Source: an uncultured archaeon (lineage in GTDB: Archaea > Halobacteriota > Methanosarcinia > Methanosarcinales > Methanoperedenaceae). From it: 32,718 bases of DNA. The stretch spans positions 1 to 32,718 of the forward strand of contig CABMII010000121.1 in the NCBI GenBank assembly GCA_902386255.1. The letters are read 5' to 3'. A program made the translations under genes and the position numbers. Each line of letters begins with the position of its first letter. The stretch's first letter is position 1. Shown here piece by piece: positions 3,875 to 31,075 of the stretch. A model generated the notes under the pieces. The model was not told the origin of the DNA, ran no database searches, and saw nothing but the letters and a program-made list of their open reading frames with translations.

Positions 3875-5125
3875 ATGAATAATGTAGCATCCACAAGTCC
3901 TGCCACTTCCTATGCCGGAGATAGAATTATCCTGGTCGGAACCGCCCATGTTTCCGACAGAAGCGTAGCCGAGGTTAATGAAGTAATCGAAAGAGAAAAG
4001 CCTGACATTGTGGCTGTAGAGCTCTGCAATGGAAGGTATCGGGCTCTAAAAGGTGAGAGTGAAGTTAAAGTAGTAAATATTAAAGAGTTGCTCAGCGGAA
4101 GCAAGTTCTATTACTTCTTAGTCCAGTTGCTTCTCTCTTATGTCCAGAAAAAAATCGGTGGGGATCAGGGTACAAAGCCGGGCGCGGAAATGCTGTCTGC
4201 CATTCAAAAAGCCGAAAAAACCGGGGCGCGAGTGGCACTTATCGACCGGGATATCCAGGTCACACTTGAGCGCTTCTGGAATAAAATGTCCTTTTTTGAG
4301 AAACTCAGGCTATTTGGCTCTCTCGTCGGGGCAGCGCTTGGTTTTGGTACAAAAGACATAGACATCGGCGCAATCACGAACGATGATGTTGTAACCCAGC
4401 TTGTCTCAGGATTAAGGAACTTTGCGCCAGGCGCAGCGGTTGTCCTGCTGGATGAGAGAAATGCCATAATGGCTAAGAATTTACTTGACATATCCAGAGA
4501 AGGAAAAGTTGTGGCTGTTGTAGGTGCAGCTCATTGCGAAGGTATCCGGAAGTATCTTGAAAACCCTGAATCCATCCCTCCGATCGGGGAATTGACGGCG
4601 CTTCCGAAGAAGGGTTTTGGCTGGTTTAAGGCTGCAACTATCCTGTTCATGGCAGTGGTTGCGGGATTACTGGCTCTTCTTGTATATTCCGGTACTGTCT
4701 CATTATCAAATCTCCTGACCGTGCTGTTAATTTTATTCATTACCAAGGGAATACTCTCAGCGGCAGGCGTTCTTCTTGCACGGGGACATTCTCTTTCGGC
4801 AGTAACTGCATTCAGCCTTGCCTGGTCGGGATTCCTGCATCCTTTTTTGCCTATCGGATGGCTTGCGGGGATTGTTGAAGCGCATTTCCGTCCCCCAACG
4901 ACTGAGGATTTCAAGACCATAACGAAAGCTGAAACAATAAGAGAATTAATGAAGAATAAGCTCTTTCGAATCCTGCTTGTGGCAAGCTTTGCCGATATAG
5001 GCAGTATGCTCGGTACTTTTATAGCCATACCTTTCATGATTCATTACCTGGGTATTTCCAATCCGCTTGAAATGCTTAAGACTGCATTGGACACCGCGCT
5101 CAATTTATTAAAAAACATGCTTTAG
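3875..5125 (+). CDS. TraB/PrgY/GumN-family membrane protein (copy 1)
   Basis: A 416-aa protein of the TraB/PrgY family. The N-terminal domain (about residues 15-235) has the family opening IILVGTAHVSDRSVAEVNEVIEREKPDIVAVELC, here cut by conserved His and Glu positions, and later VVLLDERNAIMA and VVAVVGAAHCEGI. The C-terminal part (about 250-416) has several hydrophobic segments typical of archaeal members. PrgY proteins are proposed peptidases or pheromone inhibitors; the archaeal function is not established. A close paralogue of 422 aa lies at 29543-30811 on the opposite strand. The start matches the paralogue (MNNV). The following gene is separated by 75 bases. Confidence 0.88.
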   Translation: MNNVASTSPATSYAGDRIILVGTAHVSDRSVAEVNEVIEREKPDIVAVELCNGRYRALKGESEVKVVNIKELLSGSKFYYFLVQLLLSYVQKKIGGDQGTKPGAEMLSAIQKAEKTGARVALIDRDIQVTLERFWNKMSFFEKLRLFGSLVGAALGFGTKDIDIGAITNDDVVTQLVSGLRNFAPGAAVVLLDERNAIMAKNLLDISREGKVVAVVGAAHCEGIRKYLENPESIPPIGELTALPKKGFGWFKAATILFMAVVAGLLALLVYSGTVSLSNLLTVLLILFITKGILSAAGVLLARGHSLSAVTAFSLAWSGFLHPFLPIGWLAGIVEAHFRPPTTEDFKTITKAETIRELMKNKLFRILLVASFADIGSMLGTFIAIPFMIHYLGISNPLEMLKTALDTALNLLKNML

Positions 5126-5200
5126 CTCGTAAGCTTATTTTATCCTCTGTAAAATTAATCCATGCATAAGAGCAATAAACATATTCGTGAATGAAGGACC

Positions 5201-5600
5201 ATGAAGAATAAATGCCTATGCGAATCAAGAACCTCAGAGCTGTGCTGCCCGGGCGATGAAAAACTTCGCAGGGAATGGCTCCTGAAACTGGAAAAAGAGC
5301 ATAAATCCCTAAGGCCTTCTTCAAAGGAAATCGCCAGGAAGTTAAGGCTTCTCTCAAATCCGAACAGGGTTGAGATTCTGCTGATGCTTATCGCTCAGGG
5401 AGCACTGTATGGACGAGATGGCAAAAAAAATGAAGATTCAAAAATCGGCTATTTCCTATCATCTGGCATTGTTGAAAGACAATGACATGGTATGTGTAAA
5501 AAAGCGCTCTCGTTTCGCTTTTTATGCACTTTCCCAGAGCGGAAAGAAGGCGATACTGGCTTTTGGAGATATACAGTCAAATTTTCGGATCTTTTCGTAG
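5201..5600 (+). pseudogene. ArsR-type winged-helix regulator broken by frameshift(s)
   Basis: The frame from the ATG at 5201 encodes a cysteine-rich N-terminus (CLCESRTSELCC) and the first HTH helices (ARKLRLLSNPNRVEILLMLI). At about 5408 the reading must shift by one base to continue into MDEMAKKMKIQKSAISYHLALLKD and the wing (FAFYALSQSGKKAIL). Removing one T near 5408 restores a continuous ArsR domain of about 130 aa. After 5583 the downstream sequence reads on in the original frame (FVVSPVDEPDISSP), so a second, compensating indel is possible. The Cys pairs suggest a former metal or redox sensor. Sequencing error is an alternative to real decay. No programmed-slippage heptamer was seen. 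Confidence 0.7.
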
Positions 5601-6360: not shown

Positions 6361-7107
6361 TCACAGGAGAAATTTAATCAATGCAAATATCAGGTCGCCA
6401 TAGAACGCAGCCGTGAAAAACCCCAGGGTTATGGAAATCATAAACGGCAAGCCCGGTGTAACCCAGACTTCATCTTTAATTAAACCTTTTTCTAACAGAC
6501 CATTAAGCTCCCTGATTTTTTTCTCGTTAATTTCTACACCGCCCCATTTAAAACGGGATTGAACCCTGTTCTCTACCACTTCAAAATCCTGAATCAGCCG
6601 GATATGTCTATCTGCAAGCTTTGAAATCTTAGTCTTATAACCCATGAAGATGTAAACGGGATTATCAATATGCCAGCCCATTTTCGTTATATTAAATATT
6701 GCTAACCCGATGGGAACGACAATTGTCAGCAGGGCTGAGTTGCCAAGTATACTCAGGGCAAAAATATCATACAGAGGCTTATGCAATGGAAGGGCATATC
6801 CGAAAGCATGGAATGCCGGATAAGCCGGGAAAATCATCGACAGGACAATAAGCGATTTGGCGTCAGCACCACCGAAGGCGCCGATTTTAAAAAGGATGTA
6901 AACAAGCAGGAACATGAACACTGCTGAAATAAATAAAGGATGAAGGGAAGATATCTTGTATATCGAGTAATCGTATGAGAAAAAAAAGATGCTGCCGACA
7001 AGCATTGTTAACCATACATTGTTGGATACGCTGCGCTTTTTGATATCAGAATAACATGCGTAAAGCAAAAATGGTATGCAGAATAAAATCTTTAAAGTTT
7101 CGAGCAT
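6361..7107 (-). CDS. Archaeal type IV prepilin peptidase (FlaK/EppA/PibD-like, A24 aspartic protease)
   Basis: A 248-aa polytopic membrane protease predicted to cut the N-terminal leader of type IV pilins before assembly. The two catalytic aspartates of the A24 family are visible: D21 in CYSDIKKRSV after the first membrane helix, and D82 in GGADAKSL (the GxGD-type motif). The C-terminal VTPGLPFMISITLGFF segment matches the archaeal A24 C-terminal region. A hydrophilic loop of about 60 residues lies before it. The ATG at 7107 is 20 bases after a small zinc-ribbon gene, so the two are probably co-transcribed. Likely substrates encoded nearby are the PstS-like pilin fusions (7583-8701 and 12147-13109) and the pilin at 20442. 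The enzyme class is seen in the sequence; the substrates are inferred. Confidence 0.9.
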   Translation of the reverse strand: MLETLKILFCIPFLLYACYSDIKKRSVSNNVWLTMLVGSIFFFSYDYSIYKISSLHPLFISAVFMFLLVYILFKIGAFGGADAKSLIVLSMIFPAYPAFHAFGYALPLHKPLYDIFALSILGNSALLTIVVPIGLAIFNITKMGWHIDNPVYIFMGYKTKISKLADRHIRLIQDFEVVENRVQSRFKWGGVEINEKKIRELNGLLEKGLIKDEVWVTPGLPFMISITLGFFTAAFYGDLIFALIKFLL

Positions 7108-7582: not shown

Positions 7583-8701
7583 TTAATTCTGGTAGTAGCC
7601 TGACGACTCTACGATCTTCTGCCCATCAGGGCTCAGTACAAAGTCAAGGTATGCTTTGACAGCGCCTGCTGGTACGCCCGGCTGGCTGTAGTAGTAAAGG
7701 TCTCTTGCAAGTCCTTTATTGCCGCTTACGCTCTTGCTTGATGCATCGTAGGTTCCGCCTACGCCCTTGTTGAGCTTGCTTGCTACAGTGCCGTTCTGTG
7801 CGGCTGGGATGACCGCAGCGTTTCCATTAATTCCACCTGCTGCAAATCCAATATCAACGAAGCCGATTGTGTTTTTAGTTGTTGCAATGTAGTCTCTGAT
7901 TCCCTGGTTGCCCGATTGACCGATTGCCTTAACGCTTGACTGGAACTGTGTGGTTGCGCTATCGCGAAGACCCATATAATCTGAAAATACATCTTCCGTA
8001 CCGCTGTCATCTGAGCGCTGGACTGTTGTGATGTCAGCTGTCAAACCACTTACGTTGCCTTTTGGTATAGTACCGGTTACGTACCCTTGTTTCAATTCAC
8101 CGTAGGTCAGATTAAGTACTCCACCAGCAGACAGACTTTCATTGGTGCTGTCATTTATGGTGCCTGGGACAATGTTTATAGAAGTAGCGCCGGCTATATT
8201 CCCTGCGACTACAATCAAGCCGGTTCCGATCTTTGTCTCATAGACGAATGCATTCGCTCCTGTTCCCTGGATGACTGCTTCGGTCCTGCTGGGGTAATTG
8301 AGAGTTGTACCTGTGGACGAATCTGAACCGCCAGCAGGATCCCATATAGACGAGCTTGCGCCTACATCAATCAATTTGTTATAGACAGCCGCCTTGCCAT
8401 ATCCTGAGCCTCCGCCGCCGAGGGTAATTGTTACACTGGGGTATATCTTACTGAATGCCTGGATTTCGTTCTGGGAAACTGGTAATACGGTAGTACTGCC
8501 CTTGATGACGAAATCTCCCGATACGCTCAAGTCTTTGTTTGACGATTGCGCTTCTGCATTCTTCTGCGAGCTCTGGACAAGTATGCCCACGCCCGCTGCT
8601 GCTACCACTGCAATCACGATTAATATCAGTGTTGCTATGGCAGGGGAAATGGCTTTAGAGTCCTGCAGGAACGCTTTTATTCCTTTAGTATTTATTTTCA
8701 T
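7583..8701 (-). CDS. PstS-like phosphate-binding protein with type IV prepilin N-terminus (pstS-pilin 1)
   Basis: A 372-aa protein joining two modules. Residues 1-42 form an archaeal prepilin signal: a basic, hydrophilic leader ending DSKA, then ISPAIATLILIVIAVVAA as the hydrophobic helix, with probable cleavage after A17. From about residue 62 the protein is a PstS-type periplasmic binding protein: IKGSTTVLPVSQ (68-72 core), GGGGSGYG (95-102), DVGASS (112-117) and RSDDSGTEDVF (229-239). These are the loops that hold phosphate in PstS. It should be processed by the peptidase at 6361-7107 and either built into a pilus or anchored by its helix. GGAGG lies before the ATG at 8701. Its promoter is the last member of the 220-bp tandem array. 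No pstCAB genes are nearby. Domain content is seen; pilus incorporation is inferred. Confidence 0.92.
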   Translation of the reverse strand: MKINTKGIKAFLQDSKAISPAIATLILIVIAVVAAAGVGILVQSSQKNAEAQSSNKDLSVSGDFVIKGSTTVLPVSQNEIQAFSKIYPSVTITLGGGGSGYGKAAVYNKLIDVGASSSIWDPAGGSDSSTGTTLNYPSRTEAVIQGTGANAFVYETKIGTGLIVVAGNIAGATSINIVPGTINDSTNESLSAGGVLNLTYGELKQGYVTGTIPKGNVSGLTADITTVQRSDDSGTEDVFSDYMGLRDSATTQFQSSVKAIGQSGNQGIRDYIATTKNTIGFVDIGFAAGGINGNAAVIPAAQNGTVASKLNKGVGGTYDASSKSVSGNKGLARDLYYYSQPGVPAGAVKAYLDFVLSPDGQKIVESSGYYQN

Positions 8702-8852
8702 TTTCTATCCTCCAATCTTTTTTGGTTTAGTGATGCTGACCGGTATTTGCCCATATTATTTTCATCTATCTTCCATTGAAGTTTGGCGGACACGGATTTA
8801 TAGCACCACCAGCATACCCCTAATTTCATAAACTATTTTAGTGAAACCCTCA

Positions 8853-8878
8853 TAAACTATATAGAGTAATATAGTCTA
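8853..8878. promoter_or_regulatory. Palindromic promoter/operator 1, pstS-pilin 1 promoter
   Basis: First copy of the array palindrome, slightly diverged: TAAACTATAT, six bases, ATATAGTCTA. Read on the minus strand it precedes a second box (ATAGTTTATG) about 20 bases on, then the roughly 120-base leader of pstS-pilin 1. The palindrome includes a CTATATAG core that could be the TATA box, so a bound protein would compete with TBP. Confidence 0.6.
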
Positions 8879-8881
8879 TTT

Positions 8882-9057
8882 TTATTCTCCACAGAATGAA
8901 ACAAGTGCCCTCTGGTTGGAGCTCGAAGGGGCTGAGGGCACTTTTTCATAGTTGGTGAAGCCCTCTACTAAGGCAAAAAAAGTGAGATATGTTAAGGGCT
9001 TCATGTTCCTCCTACGGGTCGTGATTTAGCGGCATGGTCCTATTGCCGCCAGATTAC
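8882..9057 (-). ncRNA. Array unit 1: structured leader/small RNA with mini-ORF (40 codons)
   Basis: Read on the minus strand, the unit starts about 25-30 bases after palindrome 2. It has a 14-bp hairpin at 9057-9021, then AGGAGG, then the ATG at 9004 of a 40-codon frame starting MKPLTYLTFF and ending at 8882. The start (ATGAAGCCC) pairs with GGGCTTCA at 8956-8963. A second strong stem, 8903-8943, follows. The mini-ORF could be a leader peptide, a tiny protein or incidental. Homologous units follow at about 220-bp intervals, in which the structure is kept better than the peptide. Confidence 0.5.
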
Positions 9058-9080
9058 TCTAATTCCATAAACTATCCCCA

Positions 9081-9106
9081 TAAACTATATAGAGCCATAT
9101 AGTTTA
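9081..9106. promoter_or_regulatory. Palindromic promoter/operator 2
   Basis: Perfect inverted repeat TAAACTATAT, spacer AGAGCC, ATATAGTTTA. The second conserved box ATAAACTAT (plus strand, 9067-9075) lies beside it, as in the other copies. Both strands carry a CTATATAG core. Confidence 0.65.
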
Positions 9107-9114
9107 TTTTTTTG

Positions 9115-9267
9115 GGAAAAGAAACTGGTGCCCCTGTGATAGGATTGGGATTTTTGGGGCACCGTTTTTTACTGAAGCCCTGTATTAGAGGAAAAAAGTA
9201 CGATTAAGGGCTTCATATTCCTCCTGCGGGGTGATTTAGCGGCATGGTCTTATTGCCGCCAGATTAC
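9115..9267 (-). ncRNA. Array unit 2: structured leader/small RNA with 15-codon mini-ORF
   Basis: Same order as unit 1 on the minus strand: hairpin 9267-9231, GCAGGAGG ribosome site, ATG at 9216 opening a 15-codon frame (MKPLIVLFSSNTGLQ), start codon stem 9173-9180 with 9208-9215, then the stem GGTGCCCC/GGGGCACC at 9127-9163 followed on the minus strand by AGTTTCTTTT, a possible terminator. On the plus strand that last stem is followed by GTTTTTT, so transcription from either side could stop here. Confidence 0.5.
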
Positions 9268-9301
9268 ACTAATTCTATAAACTATTTCATGGTAATCCTC
9301 A

Positions 9302-9327
9302 TAAAGTATATAGAGCCATGTAGTTTA
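9302..9327. promoter_or_regulatory. Palindromic promoter/operator 3
   Basis: TAAAGTATAT, spacer AGAGCC, ATGTAGTTTA: the array palindrome with one change in each arm. The neighbouring ATAAACTAT box is at 9277-9285. Confidence 0.6.
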
Positions 9328-9334
9328 TTTTTTA

Positions 9335-9484
9335 GGAAAAGAAACTGGTGCCCCTTGTATAATGGATAGGACTTGGCTTTATGGGGCACCGTTTTTTAAT
9401 GAAGCCCTTTTAGAGGAAAAGGAGTACGGTGAAGGGCTTCATATTTCTCCTCTGTTTGTGGGCTATTCTCTTTGAGCCACAGAC
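9335..9484 (-). ncRNA. Array unit 3: structured leader/small RNA with 10-codon mini-ORF
   Basis: The minus-strand hairpin at 9484-9454 sits where units 1 and 2 have theirs, but with different bases on both sides of the stem. AGAGGAGA and ATG 9442 follow, with only 10 codons (MKPFTVLLFL). The start stem pairs 9400-9407 with 9434-9441. The stem GGTGCCCC/GGGGCACC spans 9347-9390, followed on the minus strand by AGTTTCTTTT. The mini-ORF length is not conserved between units. Confidence 0.5.
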
Positions 9485-9521
9485 TGTTGTAATATCAGAA
9501 ACTATTTTATTATAATCATCA

Positions 9522-9547
9522 TAAACTATATAGAGTCATATAGTTTA
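9522..9547. promoter_or_regulatory. Palindromic promoter/operator 4
   Basis: TAAACTATAT, spacer AGAGTC, ATATAGTTTA, a perfect 10-bp-arm palindrome. The second box is diverged (AGAAACTATT at 9497-9506). Confidence 0.65.
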
Positions 9548-9548
9548 T

Positions 9549-9697
9549 TTATCTTAAAGAAAAAGAGCAGGCTTTCCGTCCGGGTAAAAGAGAGGTATTA
9601 TGAGCGGGAAGCCTGGTATGAAGCCTCTGGAAAAATATGATTGAAGGCGGTTTTATGGGCTTCATGAACCATTGAACATCTGCCAGGATAATAAAAC
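9549..9697 (-). ncRNA. Array unit 4: diverged member with 38-codon mini-ORF
   Basis: Keeps the start stem (9618-9625 with 9658-9665) and a 12-bp terminal stem (9568-9579 with 9604-9615, CAGGCTT/AAGCCTG type) followed on the minus strand by CTCTTTTTCTTT. The 5' hairpin and the ribosome site before ATG 9665 are missing. The frame (MKPIKPPSII...) is 38 codons. It is probably the oldest or most decayed copy. Confidence 0.4.
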
Positions 9698-9701
9698 ATG
9701 C

Positions 9702-9732
9702 TCCTATAGAAAAAATAGGACTATATAGTTTA
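9702..9732. promoter_or_regulatory. Half-site and hairpin at the ppk2 end of the array
   Basis: TCCTAT (9702-9707) pairs with ATAGGA (9715-9720), and a half palindrome CTATATAGTTTA follows at 9721-9732. It is the likely promoter of ppk2 on the plus strand and may also drive unit 4 on the minus strand. Confidence 0.45.
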
Positions 9733-9819
9733 AATTATTTCCTAAGACCGGGGTGAACATGACGAAGATTTATGCCTGAAACCAACATATAGAGCTTGAG
9801 ATTATCATAAGTGATATGG

Positions 9820-10686
9820 ATGAAAATCAATTCCAAAGATTTCCTTGTGCAGACAGGTGAAAAGCTCAGGCTCAAGGAGAGGCCGACGATTGTATTGCCC
9901 GAATATAAGTCAAAGGAGCAGTACCAGCAGATTCTCAGAGAACACATTGAAGAACTGAGGTCGTTGCAGAGTCTTCTTTACGCATCAAACCGCCATTCTA
10001 TATTGCTGATTTTCCAGGGAATGGATTCCGCAGGAAAAGATAGCGCCATCAAGCATATCATGTCCGGTGTCAATCCGCAGGGCTGCCAGGTTTTCAGTTT
10101 CAAACATCCCAGCGCCATGGAACTTCAGCATGATTTCCTGTGGCGTACGACCATTTGCCTGCCTGAACGGGGGCGAATTGGCATCTTCAATCGTTCCTAT
10201 TATGAGGAAGTTCTGATTGTTCGTGTACATCCGGAGATTCTACAGAGCGAAAATCTTCCGGATGGGTTTGATAAGAAAACCATCTGGCAGGAGCGCTATC
10301 GTTCTATCATGGACCTGGAGAACCATTTATATTGCAACGGAACGCGAATCATCAAATTTTTCCTTCATCTGTCGAAGGAGGAACAGAAAAAGCGTTTTCT
10401 AAAACGCATCGACGATCAGGAAAAGAACTGGAAGTTCAGCCCGGATGATATCGAGGAGAGGAAATTCTGGAAACGTTACATGAAAGCCTATGAGGCCTGC
10501 CTGAGTGCGACAAGCACCACTAATAATCCCTGGTATATCATCCCGGCCGATGACAAAGAAAACGCTCAGTTGATAATTTCCCAGATTATTCTTGACATGC
10601 TAAAAGGCTTAAAAATGACTTATCCCAGGCTTGGCAGAAAACGCCGAAAGGACTTAAAATCAATCCGCAAACAGCTCACTTCATGA
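9820..10686 (+). CDS. ppk2: PPK2-family polyphosphate:nucleotide phosphotransferase
   Basis: A 288-aa cytosolic kinase of the PPK2 family (P-loop fold), which moves phosphate between polyphosphate and nucleotides. Walker A is [13 protein letters not shown] (residues 67-79), followed by [10 protein letters not shown], then [33 protein letters not shown] carrying the Walker B region (key residues F-N-R-S-Y-Y-E). Also visible are the [18 protein letters not shown] strand-lid segment and [15 protein letters not shown]. Length and motifs match single-domain PPK2 proteins that phosphorylate AMP/ADP; the exact subclass cannot be assigned by eye. The ATG at 9820 is preferred to an in-frame GTG at 9811; neither has a strong ribosome site. 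It is divergent from pstS-pilin 1 across the tandem array, so joint regulation is plausible. Confidence 0.93.
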
Positions 10687-14634: not shown

Positions 14635-14659
14635 GTATATAGTGTATATAATCTATATA
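14635..14659. promoter_or_regulatory. TATATAGTGTATATAATCTATATA element
   Basis: An AT-rich repeated element (halves TATATAG and CTATATA) upstream of the exported protein gene (ATG 14597). It overlaps the very end of the AbrB-PhoU gene on the same strand, so the exported protein probably has its own promoter. Confidence 0.4.
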
Positions 14660-15669
14660 CTTTTAGAGAAGTCGATGGCTAACTCGGCAATGTTTGCAGC
14701 ATAATCCCCAATCCTTTTCACGCTGTCTGCTATAAGCCCTATGGACATGACTGCATCAGGATCCAGAGTTGTTGCCATGTGTCTTATTCTGTGCAACTCA
14801 TCACCTATTTTTTTATGTTCTTCGATAACCCTGTTTGCAAGCTCTACATTGCATTTTGCAAAGGAACTGACAGAATCATTGACAAGCTTATCAGAGATGG
14901 TACCAATTTTTACGAACTCATCGAGCGTTTCATGAGGAATTTTTTCCCGGGATTCCAGCATTATGCTGGCAATCTTACCCGCATGGTCTGATACGCGCTC
15001 TAACTGGTCACTTGCCAACCTGTAGTAGAAGGCACCTGCCAATCCCAGTTCACTCTTTTCGGATATTCTTGAATGGAGCAGGATATCCATGAACTGTTTT
15101 GATATCAACAGATGAAGGCGGTCTATCTCATCGTCCTGCCTTATGACCTCAGAGGCGATTGAAACATCCCTCGTCTTCATCGCCTTGATGGTATTATCAA
15201 GCATCCACTGCGTTTTTATATGCATGCGCCGGAAACTCATATCGATAGGCATATCTCCCGGATTCAGGATATCCTGGATAACTATCCTCTCGTGTGTTTC
15301 TTCGATAATCTCAATACCTATCAATTTTTTGACGATAGCAGTTATATCTTTTCTCTGCTCCAGTGTGATATTTTTGGCTTTAAGCTCGATCACGCGATAC
15401 CCTGCAACATAGGTGGCTATTATATCTCTTATCAGCGGCTCGCCCGTCCTCCCATCTATGGTTAAAGTCTTTGGACCCTGAGGAGCAAAACCGCCGTTTG
15501 AAGTTAAAAGAAGAGTTCCATCCTCCTGGGGATGCATGTGAACAAGGGAACCGGAGGTTATCCCGGTACTGGCAGCCCACTTCTTGGGAAGGGAAACAAC
15601 GAATGTTGATTTGCCAGTCACCTGGACTTTTCTTATCTCTGCATTTGTTTTTCTAATTTTATCACTCAT
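14653..15669 (-). CDS. AbrB-PhoU fusion regulator (copy 1)
   Basis: A 338-aa protein. Residues about 8-50 form an AbrB/SpoVT-like DNA-binding swapped hairpin (VTGKSTFVVSLPKKWAASTGI). The rest is alpha-helical with two PhoU-type repeats (RDVSIASEVIRQDDEIDRLHLLISKQF and GLIADSVKRIGDYAANIAELAID at the end; key D/E and R residues of PhoU metal sites are present). PhoU proteins couple phosphate status to transport and regulation; the archaeal AbrB fusions are thought to act directly on DNA. The ATG at 15669 is preferred to a TTG at 15711. It is divergent from the pilus operon. A paralogue lies at 21307-22308. Regulation of the local palindromes is inferred, not shown. Confidence 0.88.
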   Translation of the reverse strand: MSDKIRKTNAEIRKVQVTGKSTFVVSLPKKWAASTGITSGSLVHMHPQEDGTLLLTSNGGFAPQGPKTLTIDGRTGEPLIRDIIATYVAGYRVIELKAKNITLEQRKDITAIVKKLIGIEIIEETHERIVIQDILNPGDMPIDMSFRRMHIKTQWMLDNTIKAMKTRDVSIASEVIRQDDEIDRLHLLISKQFMDILLHSRISEKSELGLAGAFYYRLASDQLERVSDHAGKIASIMLESREKIPHETLDEFVKIGTISDKLVNDSVSSFAKCNVELANRVIEEHKKIGDELHRIRHMATTLDPDAVMSIGLIADSVKRIGDYAANIAELAIDFSKSI

Positions 15670-15715
15670 CTTTACATAAGCTTGCCGGGGACTATTTATG
15701 TTTTCTCCCAAGAAT

Positions 15716-21306: not shown

Positions 21307-22308
21307 ATGGAAGCACGTAAAGTTTACGTAAGTGGTGGCTCAACCTATGTAATTTCACTGCCTAAAAAATGGGTTAATAAGACTAATTTAAAGGCAGGTG
21401 ACTCTCTGGTGGTTACTGAACATGGCAGTTCATTACAGATCGAGACAGGTGTAATTGAAAAAGAGTCAAAAACTAAGGATATTAAAATCTCACAAATAAC
21501 ATCAAGTGAAGCCCTTGAGCGTATATTAATTGCTTTTTATCTGGTGGGTTATGATACGATCAAGATAAAGCTAGACAGAAAGGATCATCTTGCATATAGA
21601 GAGATCATACGGAATATTCTGGATTATCTGATAGGGGTGGAAATAGTCGAGGACACTAACGAAGCAATGACCCTTGAAATAATGCTTGATTACAAACGCA
21701 TGAGTACCATGCAGATACTCCAGCGAATGTTTTCCATAGACAAATCGATGCTTCTTGATCTTGGCAAGGCTTTAAAAAACATGGATATCGGGCTTGCAAA
21801 AGATATAATAATAAGAGAGAAAGAAATCGACCGTCTCTATTTTTTAGTTGTCAGGCAACTTAAGAGTGCTGTAGAATACCAGCAGGTAGCGGAAAAACTT
21901 GGAATAATATCTCAAAAAGATTGTCTTGGGTACAGGATTGTAGTTAAAGATCTTGAAAGAATCGCAGACCATATAGAAAACATAGCAAAGAGTTACATCA
22001 AGTTAATTGATTTTCAAAAAGCAATGCAACTGAACGATTTTATAGATCTCAACAATAATATAGTTGCGACTTTCGAAAAAGCAGTTCAGGCATTATTTAC
22101 AAGAAATGATGAAATGGCCGAGATAGTTTTCCATGAGTTGAAAAAGGTTGAGAAATCTCAATCCGATATTTCAAAAGAATTGTTTAAGATAGAAGATATT
22201 CAATCTGCCATTTTAATGAAAGCAATGTTTGATAGCCTTGGAAGAATAGCGAGTTACAGCGGAGATATAGCAGAGGTAGCTATCAATATGTCCACTGAAA
22301 TATCTTAA
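21307..22308 (+). CDS. AbrB-PhoU fusion regulator (copy 2)
   Basis: A 333-aa paralogue of the protein at 14653-15669. The N-terminal SpoVT/AbrB hairpin is VYVSGGSTYVISLPKKWVNKTNL, given here by its ends VYVSGGSTY and SLPKKWVNK. The helical PhoU repeats end in MFDSLGRIASYSGDIAEVAINMS, matching the copy 1 C-terminus. Acidic and Arg residues of the PhoU repeats are kept (EKEIDRLYFLVVRQL). It is likely a phosphate-status regulator, either of the pilus/pstS genes or by heteromerisation with copy 1. It stands alone downstream of the pilin gene with its own promoter. Confidence 0.88.
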   Translation: MEARKVYVSGGSTYVISLPKKWVNKTNLKAGDSLVVTEHGSSLQIETGVIEKESKTKDIKISQITSSEALERILIAFYLVGYDTIKIKLDRKDHLAYREIIRNILDYLIGVEIVEDTNEAMTLEIMLDYKRMSTMQILQRMFSIDKSMLLDLGKALKNMDIGLAKDIIIREKEIDRLYFLVVRQLKSAVEYQQVAEKLGIISQKDCLGYRIVVKDLERIADHIENIAKSYIKLIDFQKAMQLNDFIDLNNNIVATFEKAVQALFTRNDEMAEIVFHELKKVEKSQSDISKELFKIEDIQSAILMKAMFDSLGRIASYSGDIAEVAINMSTEIS

Positions 22309-24273: not shown

Positions 24274-25607
24274 ATGCAAAGCAAGCACGAAGGAATAGTA
24301 CTTTCCATACTTGTACTCGGAACACTAATGGGTGCGCTCGATACAACCATAGTGTTGCTTGCGCTTCCTTCTATGACCGAGGGGCTAAACTCAAACCTCG
24401 GAGAAACGATTTGGGTTATACTGATTTACCTTCTTGTTATTGCTGTAACTACGATGCAGTTCGGCAGGCTTGGTGACCTCTTTGGGAGAAGCAAGGCGTT
24501 CAACCTGGGTTTTGCTGTTTTCACACTCGGCTCTGCGTTCTGCGGTTTTGCGTAACCAAATGGCTCTCTTGTGGGTTTCAGGGCCGTACAGGCTGTTGGC
24601 GGAGCCCTCATGCAGGCAACAAGCGGTGCCATAATCGCAGATACATTTGAGGTTGGAAGACGGGGCAAAGCATATGGTTACATATCAATGGGCTGGAACA
24701 TAGGGGCAATGCTTGGCATAGTGCTTGGCGGTTTGCTGACAACATTCGTAGGCTGGCGTTTCATATTTTTCATAAACGTGCCAATAGGCGGTGCAGCGCT
24801 TTTGCTTGGAATCAGATACCTGAATGATAACCCGAAAGTGAATGCAAAGATGGACCTTGCAGGCATGCTGCTTCTGGGCTCGGCGCTCTCTTTCTTATGT
24901 TACGGCGCAGTGGACTTTGCCTCTGCGGGACTAAGCAGTTTCAATATCCTGTTCAAATTAGCAGGTGTAATTGCAGTTATAGCATTTCTATTTTGGGAAT
25001 CAAGAAGTGCATCCCCCGCGCTTGACCTGCACGCCTTCAGGAACCGGGTGCTCAGTGCTTCCATCTTTGCATCTTTCTTCCAGAGCCTTGGATTTTTGTC
25101 GGTAACATTCCTGATTATCATGTATCTTCAAGGTATCAGGGGCCTGGATCCTTTTACAGCGGCATTGCTGTTAACACTTTCCTTGACCAGTGCAACCAGC
25201 TCGATGTGCAGGGCCTGGATCCTTTTACAGCGGCATTGCTGTTAACACCCGGTTATATAATCAGCAGCTTCCTCTCGCCTTACATGGGCAGGTTATCAGA
25301 CAGGTTCGGCACCAGAGGAATAGCAACTGCGGGCACAGCGCTCATGTGTTTTGCGATATTGATGTATATGACCCTGACAATCTCAAGTGATTATTCTATT
25401 ATAATTTCAGCTTCAATAATCTCAGGAATCGGAGGCGCTATGTTCTGGCCTGCAAACAGCAGCGCAGTGATGTCAAATGCACATCATGAACATTACGGGA
25501 GCATTTCGGGTTTGCTCAGGCTTATGACGAATGTAGGAACCCTTGGCAGCTTCGTCATTTCGATAACAGCAGCTACCGTAGCAATATCCAGGAGTACAGG
25601 CATTTGA
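24274..25607 (+). pseudogene. MFS drug transporter (DHA2-like), decayed
   Basis: The remains of a 14-helix major-facilitator multidrug exporter: opening VLGTLMGALDTTIVLLALPS, motif A-like FGRLGDLFGRSKAF, then FRAVQAVGGALMQATSGAI (ends FRAVQAVGG and ATSGAI), WRFIFFINVPIG, and LDPFTAALLLTPGY. Three lesions are visible: an in-frame TAA at 24553 in CGFA*PNGSLVG, a 71-bp insertion made of a 38-bp direct repeat (25140-25177 and 25211-25248) that shifts the frame, and truncation at 25607 after about 12 helices. It was probably once functional; it is not translatable as one protein now. Confidence 0.9.
25140..25248 (+). repeat. 38-bp direct repeat causing a 71-bp duplication in the MFS gene
   Basis: Identical 38-base copies at 25140-25177 and 25211-25248 (beginning GGGCCTGGATCC), with a 33-base spacer. 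The offset of 71 is not a multiple of three and breaks the reading frame. Confidence 0.9.
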
Positions 25608-29542: not shown

Positions 29543-30811
29543 CTATAGTATATTTTTTACTAAGTTGAATCCTGTACCTAATGCTATCTTAACTATTTCA
29601 TATGGATTGGGCATACCCAGATAATGAACCATTATAGGTATAGCTATAAAAGTCCCAAGCATGCTGCCAAAGTTGGCAAGGCCTGCTACAAGTAAAATAC
29701 GAAAGAGTCTGTTTTGCATGAAATCTTTCATGGTTTCAGCTTTCATAATCGTTTTGAAATCTTCTGTCATAGGTGGATGATAATGCGCTTCCACAATTCC
29801 GGCAAGCCATCCGACAGGTAACCGGGGATGAAGGAATCCAGACCATGCCAGGCTAAAAGCAGTCAAGACCGAAACTGAATGACCCCGTGCGAGTATAACA
29901 CCAGCAGCCGAAAGTATCCCTTTGGTGATGAATAAAATTAACAGCATTATAAGTAGCGTATATAAAGAAACAGCCCCGGAATAGACAAGAAGAACCAGTA
30001 ATCCTATAACCATTACGGATAATCCAATAGCAGTAGCCTTAAACCAGCTAAAGCCCTTTTTTGGGAGTACCATTAGTTCCTCAACTGGAGGAATAGACTC
30101 AGGAGCGTCCAGATACTTCTGGATGCCCTCACGGTGGGCAGCGCCTACAACCGCTACAACCTTGCATTCCCTTGAAAAATCAAGCAGATTTCTTGCCATT
30201 ATAGCATTTCTTTCGTCCAAAAGAACAGAGGCAGCGGCTGGAGCCACCTTCCTTAACTCAGAGACCAACTGGGTGACAACATCCTCATCTGTCACCCTGT
30301 CCATATCGATGTCTTCCGTCCCAAAACCAAAAGTTGCACTAATGAGAGAACCAAATAGTTTCAGCTTCTCAAAAAAGGACATTTTATTCCAGAAGCGGGC
30401 TAATGTGATCTGGATATCCCTATCGATAAGTGCTATACGGGCATTGTTTTTTTCAGCTATTTCAATAGCAGAAAGCATCTCTGCACCCGGCTTAACCCCC
30501 TGCTCCTTTCCGAATTTTTTCTGGACGTAAGCGAGAAGCCAGTGCATTAAGAAGTGATAAAACTTATTTCCGCTGAGTAAATCTTTAACATTTACTTCTT
30601 TAACTTCTTCTTCCCCTTTTAATGCCTTATATCTTCCTTTACAGAGTTCAATCGCCACAATGTCGGGTTTTTCCCTTTCAATTACTTCATTGACCTCTAT
30701 TACGCTCCTGTCAGAAACATGAGCCGTTCCAACTAGGATTATCCTGCCTGTATCAAACGAAGCAGAGCGACTATTGGAATTGTGACTTGTTGGAGAAATT
30801 ACATTATTCAT
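29543..30811 (-). CDS. TraB/PrgY/GumN-family membrane protein (copy 2)
   Basis: A 422-aa close paralogue of the product of 3875-5125. The N-terminal domain (RIILVGTAHVSDRSVIEV, VAIELCKGRYKALKGEEE), the DERNAIMARNLLDFSREC segment and the C-terminal hydrophobic helices match throughout. The start is set at ATG 30811, which aligns with MNNV of the first copy and has AAAGGA upstream; a longer frame reaches 30859. The biochemical role is not established. It is convergent with tatA; 24 bases separate their stops. Confidence 0.88.
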   Translation of the reverse strand: MNNVISPTSHNSNSRSASFDTGRIILVGTAHVSDRSVIEVNEVIEREKPDIVAIELCKGRYKALKGEEEVKEVNVKDLLSGNKFYHFLMHWLLAYVQKKFGKEQGVKPGAEMLSAIEIAEKNNARIALIDRDIQITLARFWNKMSFFEKLKLFGSLISATFGFGTEDIDMDRVTDEDVVTQLVSELRKVAPAAASVLLDERNAIMARNLLDFSRECKVVAVVGAAHREGIQKYLDAPESIPPVEELMVLPKKGFSWFKATAIGLSVMVIGLLVLLVYSGAVSLYTLLIMLLILFITKGILSAAGVILARGHSVSVLTAFSLAWSGFLHPRLPVGWLAGIVEAHYHPPMTEDFKTIMKAETMKDFMQNRLFRILLVAGLANFGSMLGTFIAIPIMVHYLGMPNPYEIVKIALGTGFNLVKNIL

Positions 30812-31075
30812 TTCATTCCTTTTTTCAAGCTTCACTCTAGTCCGACATTGTAAGACCAATCAAAATTAGTATAATCCCTATCAAGAGTTGAGATTTGGGA
30901 CTCGTCCAGATGTAATGATTTAATGCCGAAATATAATATTTTAACCTGCGTATTTTAATTATCAGCTTCATTATAACTCAGTTTAGTGTTTTTCTGTTCT
31001 TAAAAACCTTTCTCTGATGAAGCTTTGTGTATCTTTTCCCAAAAAAACTTCCTCATTCTAAATAAATGTATATAT

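Follow-up and report, generated by a model that had tools for sequence, protein, structure and literature searches.

A conserved tandem array of promoter and hairpin units at the pst locus of Ca. Methanoperedens, a possible family of sibling small RNAs

The window, a stretch of 32,718 nucleotides, is one contig (C121, genome G000) of a 172-contig genome, the host of which is Ca. Methanoperedens, a methane-oxidising archaeon. In the MAG to which the window belongs, mcrA was not detected; it is present in most genomes of the genus, so that the gap probably reflects incomplete assembly. Between a pstS-like gene on the minus strand and ppk2, four units with a period of about 220 bp can be found at 8821-9735. 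The array and its flanking genes comprise the following features.

7583..8701, minus strand: pstS-like gene for a phosphate-binding protein (PBP_like_2), whose presence tracks the array
8827..8879, plus strand: putative promoter/operator of unit 1 (half-site 8827-8836, palindrome 8851-8879 including CTATATAG), conserved among 23 aligned promoters
8896..9013, plus strand: predicted RNA body of unit 1 (hairpin 1 8896-8949, hairpin 2 8956-9003)
9006-9013, plus strand: CU-rich tail UUCCUCCU of unit 1 (R1 match of the unit, 8885-9018)
9029..9049, no strand assigned: hairpin 3, GCGGCA..TGCCGC, leading from unit 1 to the promoter of unit 2, seen in the sequence
9066..9107, plus strand: putative promoter/operator of unit 2 (half-site 9066-9075, palindrome 9079-9107)
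9119..9225, plus strand: predicted RNA body of unit 2 (hairpin 1 9119-9170 followed by U6, hairpin 2 9173-9215)
9218-9225, plus strand: tail UUCCUCCU of unit 2 (R1 match of the unit, 9108-9230)
9239..9259, no strand assigned: hairpin 3, leading from unit 2 to the promoter of unit 3 (direct repeat D4)
9276..9328, plus strand: putative promoter/operator of unit 3 (half-site 9276-9285, palindrome 9300-9328)
9338..9451, plus strand: predicted RNA body of unit 3, a recent duplicate of unit 2 (hairpin 1 9338-9397, hairpin 2 9399-9442)
9444-9451, plus strand: tail UUUCUCCU of unit 3 (R1 match of the unit, 9328-9456)
9496..9548, plus strand: putative promoter/operator of unit 4 (half-site 9496-9505, palindrome 9520-9548)
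9568..9680, plus strand: predicted RNA body of unit 4, terminal class (CAGGCTTTCCG hairpin 9568-9615, hairpin 2 9618-9665)
9666-9680, plus strand: conserved GAACCATTGAACATC of unit 4, the end of the terminal-class body
9702..9733, minus strand: terminal element CTATAGAAAAAATAGGACTATATAGTTT, which resembles an inverted unit promoter
9820..10686, plus strand: ppk2 (polyphosphate kinase 2), adjoining the array on the right here but in none of the relatives examined

The palindromes, of the form CATAAACTATATAGAG..TATAGTYTAT, are spaced by 228, 221 and 220 nt, as an earlier note on this DNA had placed them, and the array has a TRF score of 601. Their repetition is far above chance: with at most one mismatch, AAACTATATAG occurs 12 times in the window vs. 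0.9 expected, and a scan of the whole 2.6 Mb genome confines the palindrome pattern to the array locus. The likeness of all four units, also claimed in that note, holds for the promoter, which unit 4 has in common with the others, but not for the hairpin body, which in unit 4 carries a CAGGCTTTCCG stem and belongs to a different class (tree support 1.0), while units 2 and 3 are close duplicates. An end consisting of a stem plus U-rich sequence, likewise ascribed to each unit, is clear only in units 2 and 3, where it follows hairpin 1 (GTTTTTTA), and missing in most relatives, so that a terminator is not established.

Each unit appears to possess its own promoter together with a common operator. 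This promoter/operator, with three ATARACTATA-type half-sites around a TATA-like CTATATAG, is nearly invariant and confined to arrays, and 23 promoters align as TAATTTCATAAACTATTT.AGG.TAA.CCTCATARACTATAKAGAGT..TATARTYTATTTTTAT. The direct half-site CATAAACTAT lies upstream of the palindrome by 24, 13, 24, and 24 nt in units 1 to 4, i.e., it is 11 nt closer in unit 2 than in the other units, or about one helical turn. The promoter of every intact unit contains CTATATAG or CTATAGAG. On the plus side, A-rich sequence comes before this element, and a T-rich stretch comes after it at a constant distance, where a start site would fall. It is plausible that CTATATAG is a TATA box. A canonical archaeal GAAAnnTTTATATA-type motif was recovered from 155 upstream regions, and TATATAG is found 9 times in forward vs. 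2 times in reverse orientation between -80 and -25 of predicted genes. With the TATA profile from these 155 regions both strands score, the minus-strand sites being equal or higher at some units; tRNA upstream regions (n = 6) were too few for calibration. Since CTATATAG is self-complementary, the promoter anatomy leans to the plus strand and no further. Regarding its regulation, the operator would be phosphate-responsive, given that it sits at the pst locus. An AbrB/MazE-like DNA-binding domain is associated with PhoU domains in two proteins encoded in the window (14653-15711, minus strand; 21307-22308, plus strand); both fusion proteins are candidate phosphate regulators, and one of them is perhaps the regulator of the array.

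RNA secondary structure is conserved in the array. The body of about 120-135 nt folds into two hairpins, namely hairpin 1, AUGAAAC-GGUGCCCC...GGGGCACC-GUUUCAU, and hairpin 2, UGAAGCCC...GGGCUUCA, which are preserved by two-sided base changes. In a 15-sequence alignment such changes affect 9 of the 25 pairs (15 cells), a level reached by none of 500 shuffles, and 88.9% of the cells are paired vs. 31-51% with slid partners, a control that is biased toward this structure because it was derived from one aligned sequence; this origin has no bearing on the compensatory changes. Mean folding z-scores are -3.2 for the plus and -3.6 for the minus strand. G.U and A.C mismatches are equally frequent in the alignment (17 vs. 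17; wobble counts with loose stems, 45 vs. 40), and base pairing therefore favors neither strand. A GC-rich hairpin analogous to hairpin 3 at 9029..9049 can also be found in relatives.

Three paralogous body classes are common to several species, the tree giving a support of 0.996 to a first class and of 1.0 to a terminal class, with an interior group as the third. The interior group exhibits GGAG or AGGA in the loop of hairpin 1 and UUCCUCCU-like tails, such that loop GGAG could pair with tail CUCC in a candidate pseudoknot. The first class displays CUCUCCC in its hairpin 1 loops, and the terminal class harbors CAGGCUUUCCG in its stems and a conserved tail, GAACCAUUGAACAUC. A candidate anti-Shine-Dalgarno (anti-SD) motif, rich in C and U, is located in the interior tail and in the first-class loop, with a weak tail in the first class and none in the terminal class. 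Against a 16S consensus, the 14-nt tails of units 1-3 of the window, unit 1 of G026, unit 2 of G021, and unit 1 of G028 match the 16S 3' end over 5-6 nt, above shuffled tails.

A lack of similar arrays in related genomes was among the observations that the earlier note counted against its reading. Such arrays are found in eight other species: the operator pattern is present in 9 of the 31 species of the genus, host included, and a DNA search returned related arrays in the same genus with E down to 1e-82. All operator matches of the genus fall within arrays, save one weak match with 3 mismatches in G005, and in a 393-genome sample of the phylum the pattern is limited to the two carriers of an array from this genus that the sample contained. 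The arrays, with 1-4 recognizable units each, are virtually restricted to the pst/phoU locus. The genomes G005, G016, G020, and G021 each have a pst/phoU cluster with a pstS homologue, upstream of which the array is situated, the right-hand gene being convergent or unrelated; because of these convergent neighbors the plus strand leads no gene in the relatives examined. An array is present in 7 of 8 genomes with the pstS paralogue found here vs. 2 of 23 without it (Fisher p = 1e-4, a value that ignores the shared ancestry of the species). G008 and G017 harbor an array without this paralogue; in G019, which has the paralogue, phoU and pstS are separated by one degenerate operator copy, and a hairpin unit is lacking. 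At L130 of G008 (4626-5270) the array is rearranged, a unit promoter being fused to the terminal element and followed by an interior-class body; this arrangement is a recombination intermediate. A functional partnership with ppk2 was considered and discarded, since in the relatives examined different genes, most of them convergent, adjoin the array on the right.

No array was found in viral contigs. The earlier remark that no described family of this form was known agrees with Rfam 15, where positions 8500-10000 of the window match no family up to E = 1, and with the literature, where a limited search of open-access papers yielded no described counterpart and no tandem small-RNA array in archaea. 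The covariance-model search proposed in the earlier note recovered the known loci and otherwise only weak matches (G002, G074, G080, G081, G139), with convincing members in this genus alone and none beyond the training loci. The G002 locus was rejected as a member, both an array-like promoter and the pst context being absent.

We consider it somewhat likelier than even that the locus is a tandem array of sibling small RNAs, encoded on the plus strand, with their own promoters and linked to phosphate. Four sibling genes would be read from left to right, each from its own TATA-type promoter set in the three-half-site operator (a direct repeat plus a palindrome of ATARACTATA). A regulator of phosphate status would bind this operator, so that the RNAs and the divergent pstS would be co-expressed. 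Two hairpins would form in each RNA, with a CU-rich anti-SD tail at the end of the interior class and CUCUCCC exposed in the hairpin 1 loop of the relatives' first class. Such tails and exposed loops make it likely that, when phosphate is short, the RNAs would mask the ribosome-binding sites of their target mRNAs, in the manner of NmsR and LhrC in bacteria and of sRNA162 in Methanosarcina. The data show the repeats, the conserved promoters, the covarying hairpins, the classes, the confinement to one locus, and the association with this pstS; we infer transcription, its strand, the regulator, the anti-SD action, and the targets. A fuller version, in which an archaeal multicopy small-RNA array serves a phosphate-stress regulon and the anti-SD site has moved from the 3' tail to an apical loop or been lost, is given slightly less than an even chance. 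Among the possibilities raised in the earlier note, a small-RNA family is the best supported, by conservation among species, paired changes, one promoter per unit and three classes, though base pairs leave the strand undecided.

With pstS itself on the minus strand, the array might instead be a leader or attenuator of this gene, the transcript starting at the palindromes or the terminal element and passing hairpin 3, then 2, then 1 on its way to pstS; hairpin 2 would enclose the AGGAGG-ATG starts. The interior units do have AGGAGGAAT-ATG on the minus strand, the hairpins fold equally well there, and the inverted, promoter-like terminal element is followed by conservation that continues into the array; this element is conserved at the right array end in five genomes, irrespective of whether a plus-strand gene comes next, and could give rise to antisense transcripts of the array. 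However, the minus-strand ATG-AAG-CCC frames range from 3 to 49 codons across relatives, their conservation ending at the stem-encoded MKP, as expected from the earlier remark that the peptides are unconserved. The AGGAGG-to-ATG spacing is 3 nt, vs. mostly 4-9 among the genes of the genome, where 3 nt is rare, and the terminal class lacks a ribosome site. No conserved short peptide with a usable ribosome site was found, and leader-peptide control is disfavored because the peptides are unconserved and the SD spacing is atypical. Furthermore, the array survives without pstS in G008 and G017, while G019 has this pstS with a single degenerate operator. Attenuation ahead of pstS, as formerly suggested, is weakened accordingly, and we regard a minus-strand leader as unlikely.

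Less probable still is an array of operators that concentrates or sequesters a regulator, cooperatively or by titration, the intervening DNA being a by-product of duplication. This decoy, also among the earlier proposals, accounts for the promoter part: the promoter/operator is far better conserved than the bodies, promoters persist beside truncated bodies (unit 3 of G021, unit 3 of G020, and G008), and the 11-nt difference in half-site spacing is close to one helical turn. It leaves unexplained, however, the compensatory changes in two hairpins and the three body classes across species. A mobile or REP-like repeat, locally expanded and without regulatory function, would fit the recent duplication of units 2 and 3, the copy numbers differing among species, and the palindromes and hairpins reminiscent of REP elements. 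Yet the repeat is confined to the one pst locus of each genome with no convincing copy elsewhere, contrary to the dispersal of REP or MITE elements, and the orthologous classes stay in order, which makes this explanation highly improbable.

As regards a tandem small-RNA array, multicopy paralogous RNAs under one stress regulator, e.g., Qrr and CsrB/RsmZ, occur in bacteria and depend on Hfq or CsrA; GGA in the interior-class loops cannot be taken as a sign of a CsrA-type system here. NmsRA and NmsRB of Neisseria are tandem, near-identical siblings in one intergenic region with annotated promoters, and repress translation via anti-SD motifs (PMC5362039). The array resembles them in its tandem sibling units and putative promoters, and its candidate anti-SD motifs would correspond to theirs, whereas NmsRA/NmsRB are bacterial, proven by expression and reporter assays, present in two copies, and metabolic rather than phosphate-related; no sequence relation was found (no Rfam match). 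LhrC1-5 of Listeria are copies of about 111-114 nt, lhrC1-4 being at one locus, which are co-induced by LisRK and bind targets through redundant CU-rich motifs (PMC4132741). Several copies and a single locus are found here as well, and the CU-rich stretches of the interior and first classes are candidate counterparts of these motifs, but the LhrC copies are nearly identical, in contrast to the three divergent classes of the array, and their transcription, under a bacterial two-component regulator, is proven. In Methanosarcina mazei, sRNA162 masks a ribosome-binding site by an unstructured linker (PMC3510493). It belongs to the same archaeal order and shares the ribosome-site masking proposed for the array; unlike the array, it is an individual gene, not tandem, that controls methanol/methylamine metabolism, and no similarity to it was detected. 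Multicopy small RNAs are thus already known in bacteria, while an archaeal, operator-linked, class-diversified array would be new.

If this interpretation is true, the conserved operator could serve as bait for the phosphate regulator of archaea, and small RNAs would add a layer of phosphate-stress control in uncultured nitrate- and metal-dependent methane oxidizers. To our knowledge, the regulation of archaeal phosphate uptake and its DNA operator are poorly known. The RNA alignment and model allow direct comparison with existing metatranscriptomes.

Several neighboring genes deserve mention. The PstS-like protein (7583-8701, minus strand) has an archaellin/pilin-like N-terminus (KAFLQDSKAISPAIATLILIVIAVVAAAGVGILVQ), which suggests a phosphate-binding protein with pilin-type processing, and a Peptidase_A24 prepilin peptidase gene (6361-7107, minus strand) adjoins its gene, as in several relatives. 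PPK2 (9820-10686) exhibits 92% identity to its homologue in LFW-280_3_1 (CABMIB010000095.1), given as Methanoperedenaceae / Ca. Methanoperedens (PMC8561730); its next best relatives, at about 75%, are a mix of Thaumarchaeota MAGs and Proteobacteria, which suggests horizontal transfer. The MFS transporter at 24274-25607 is split into several frames with an internal near-repeat (GLDPFTAALLLT) and is perhaps a pseudogene or an assembly error. Two similar TraB/PrgY-like paralogues (3875-5125 and 29543-30859) lie near opposite ends of the window.
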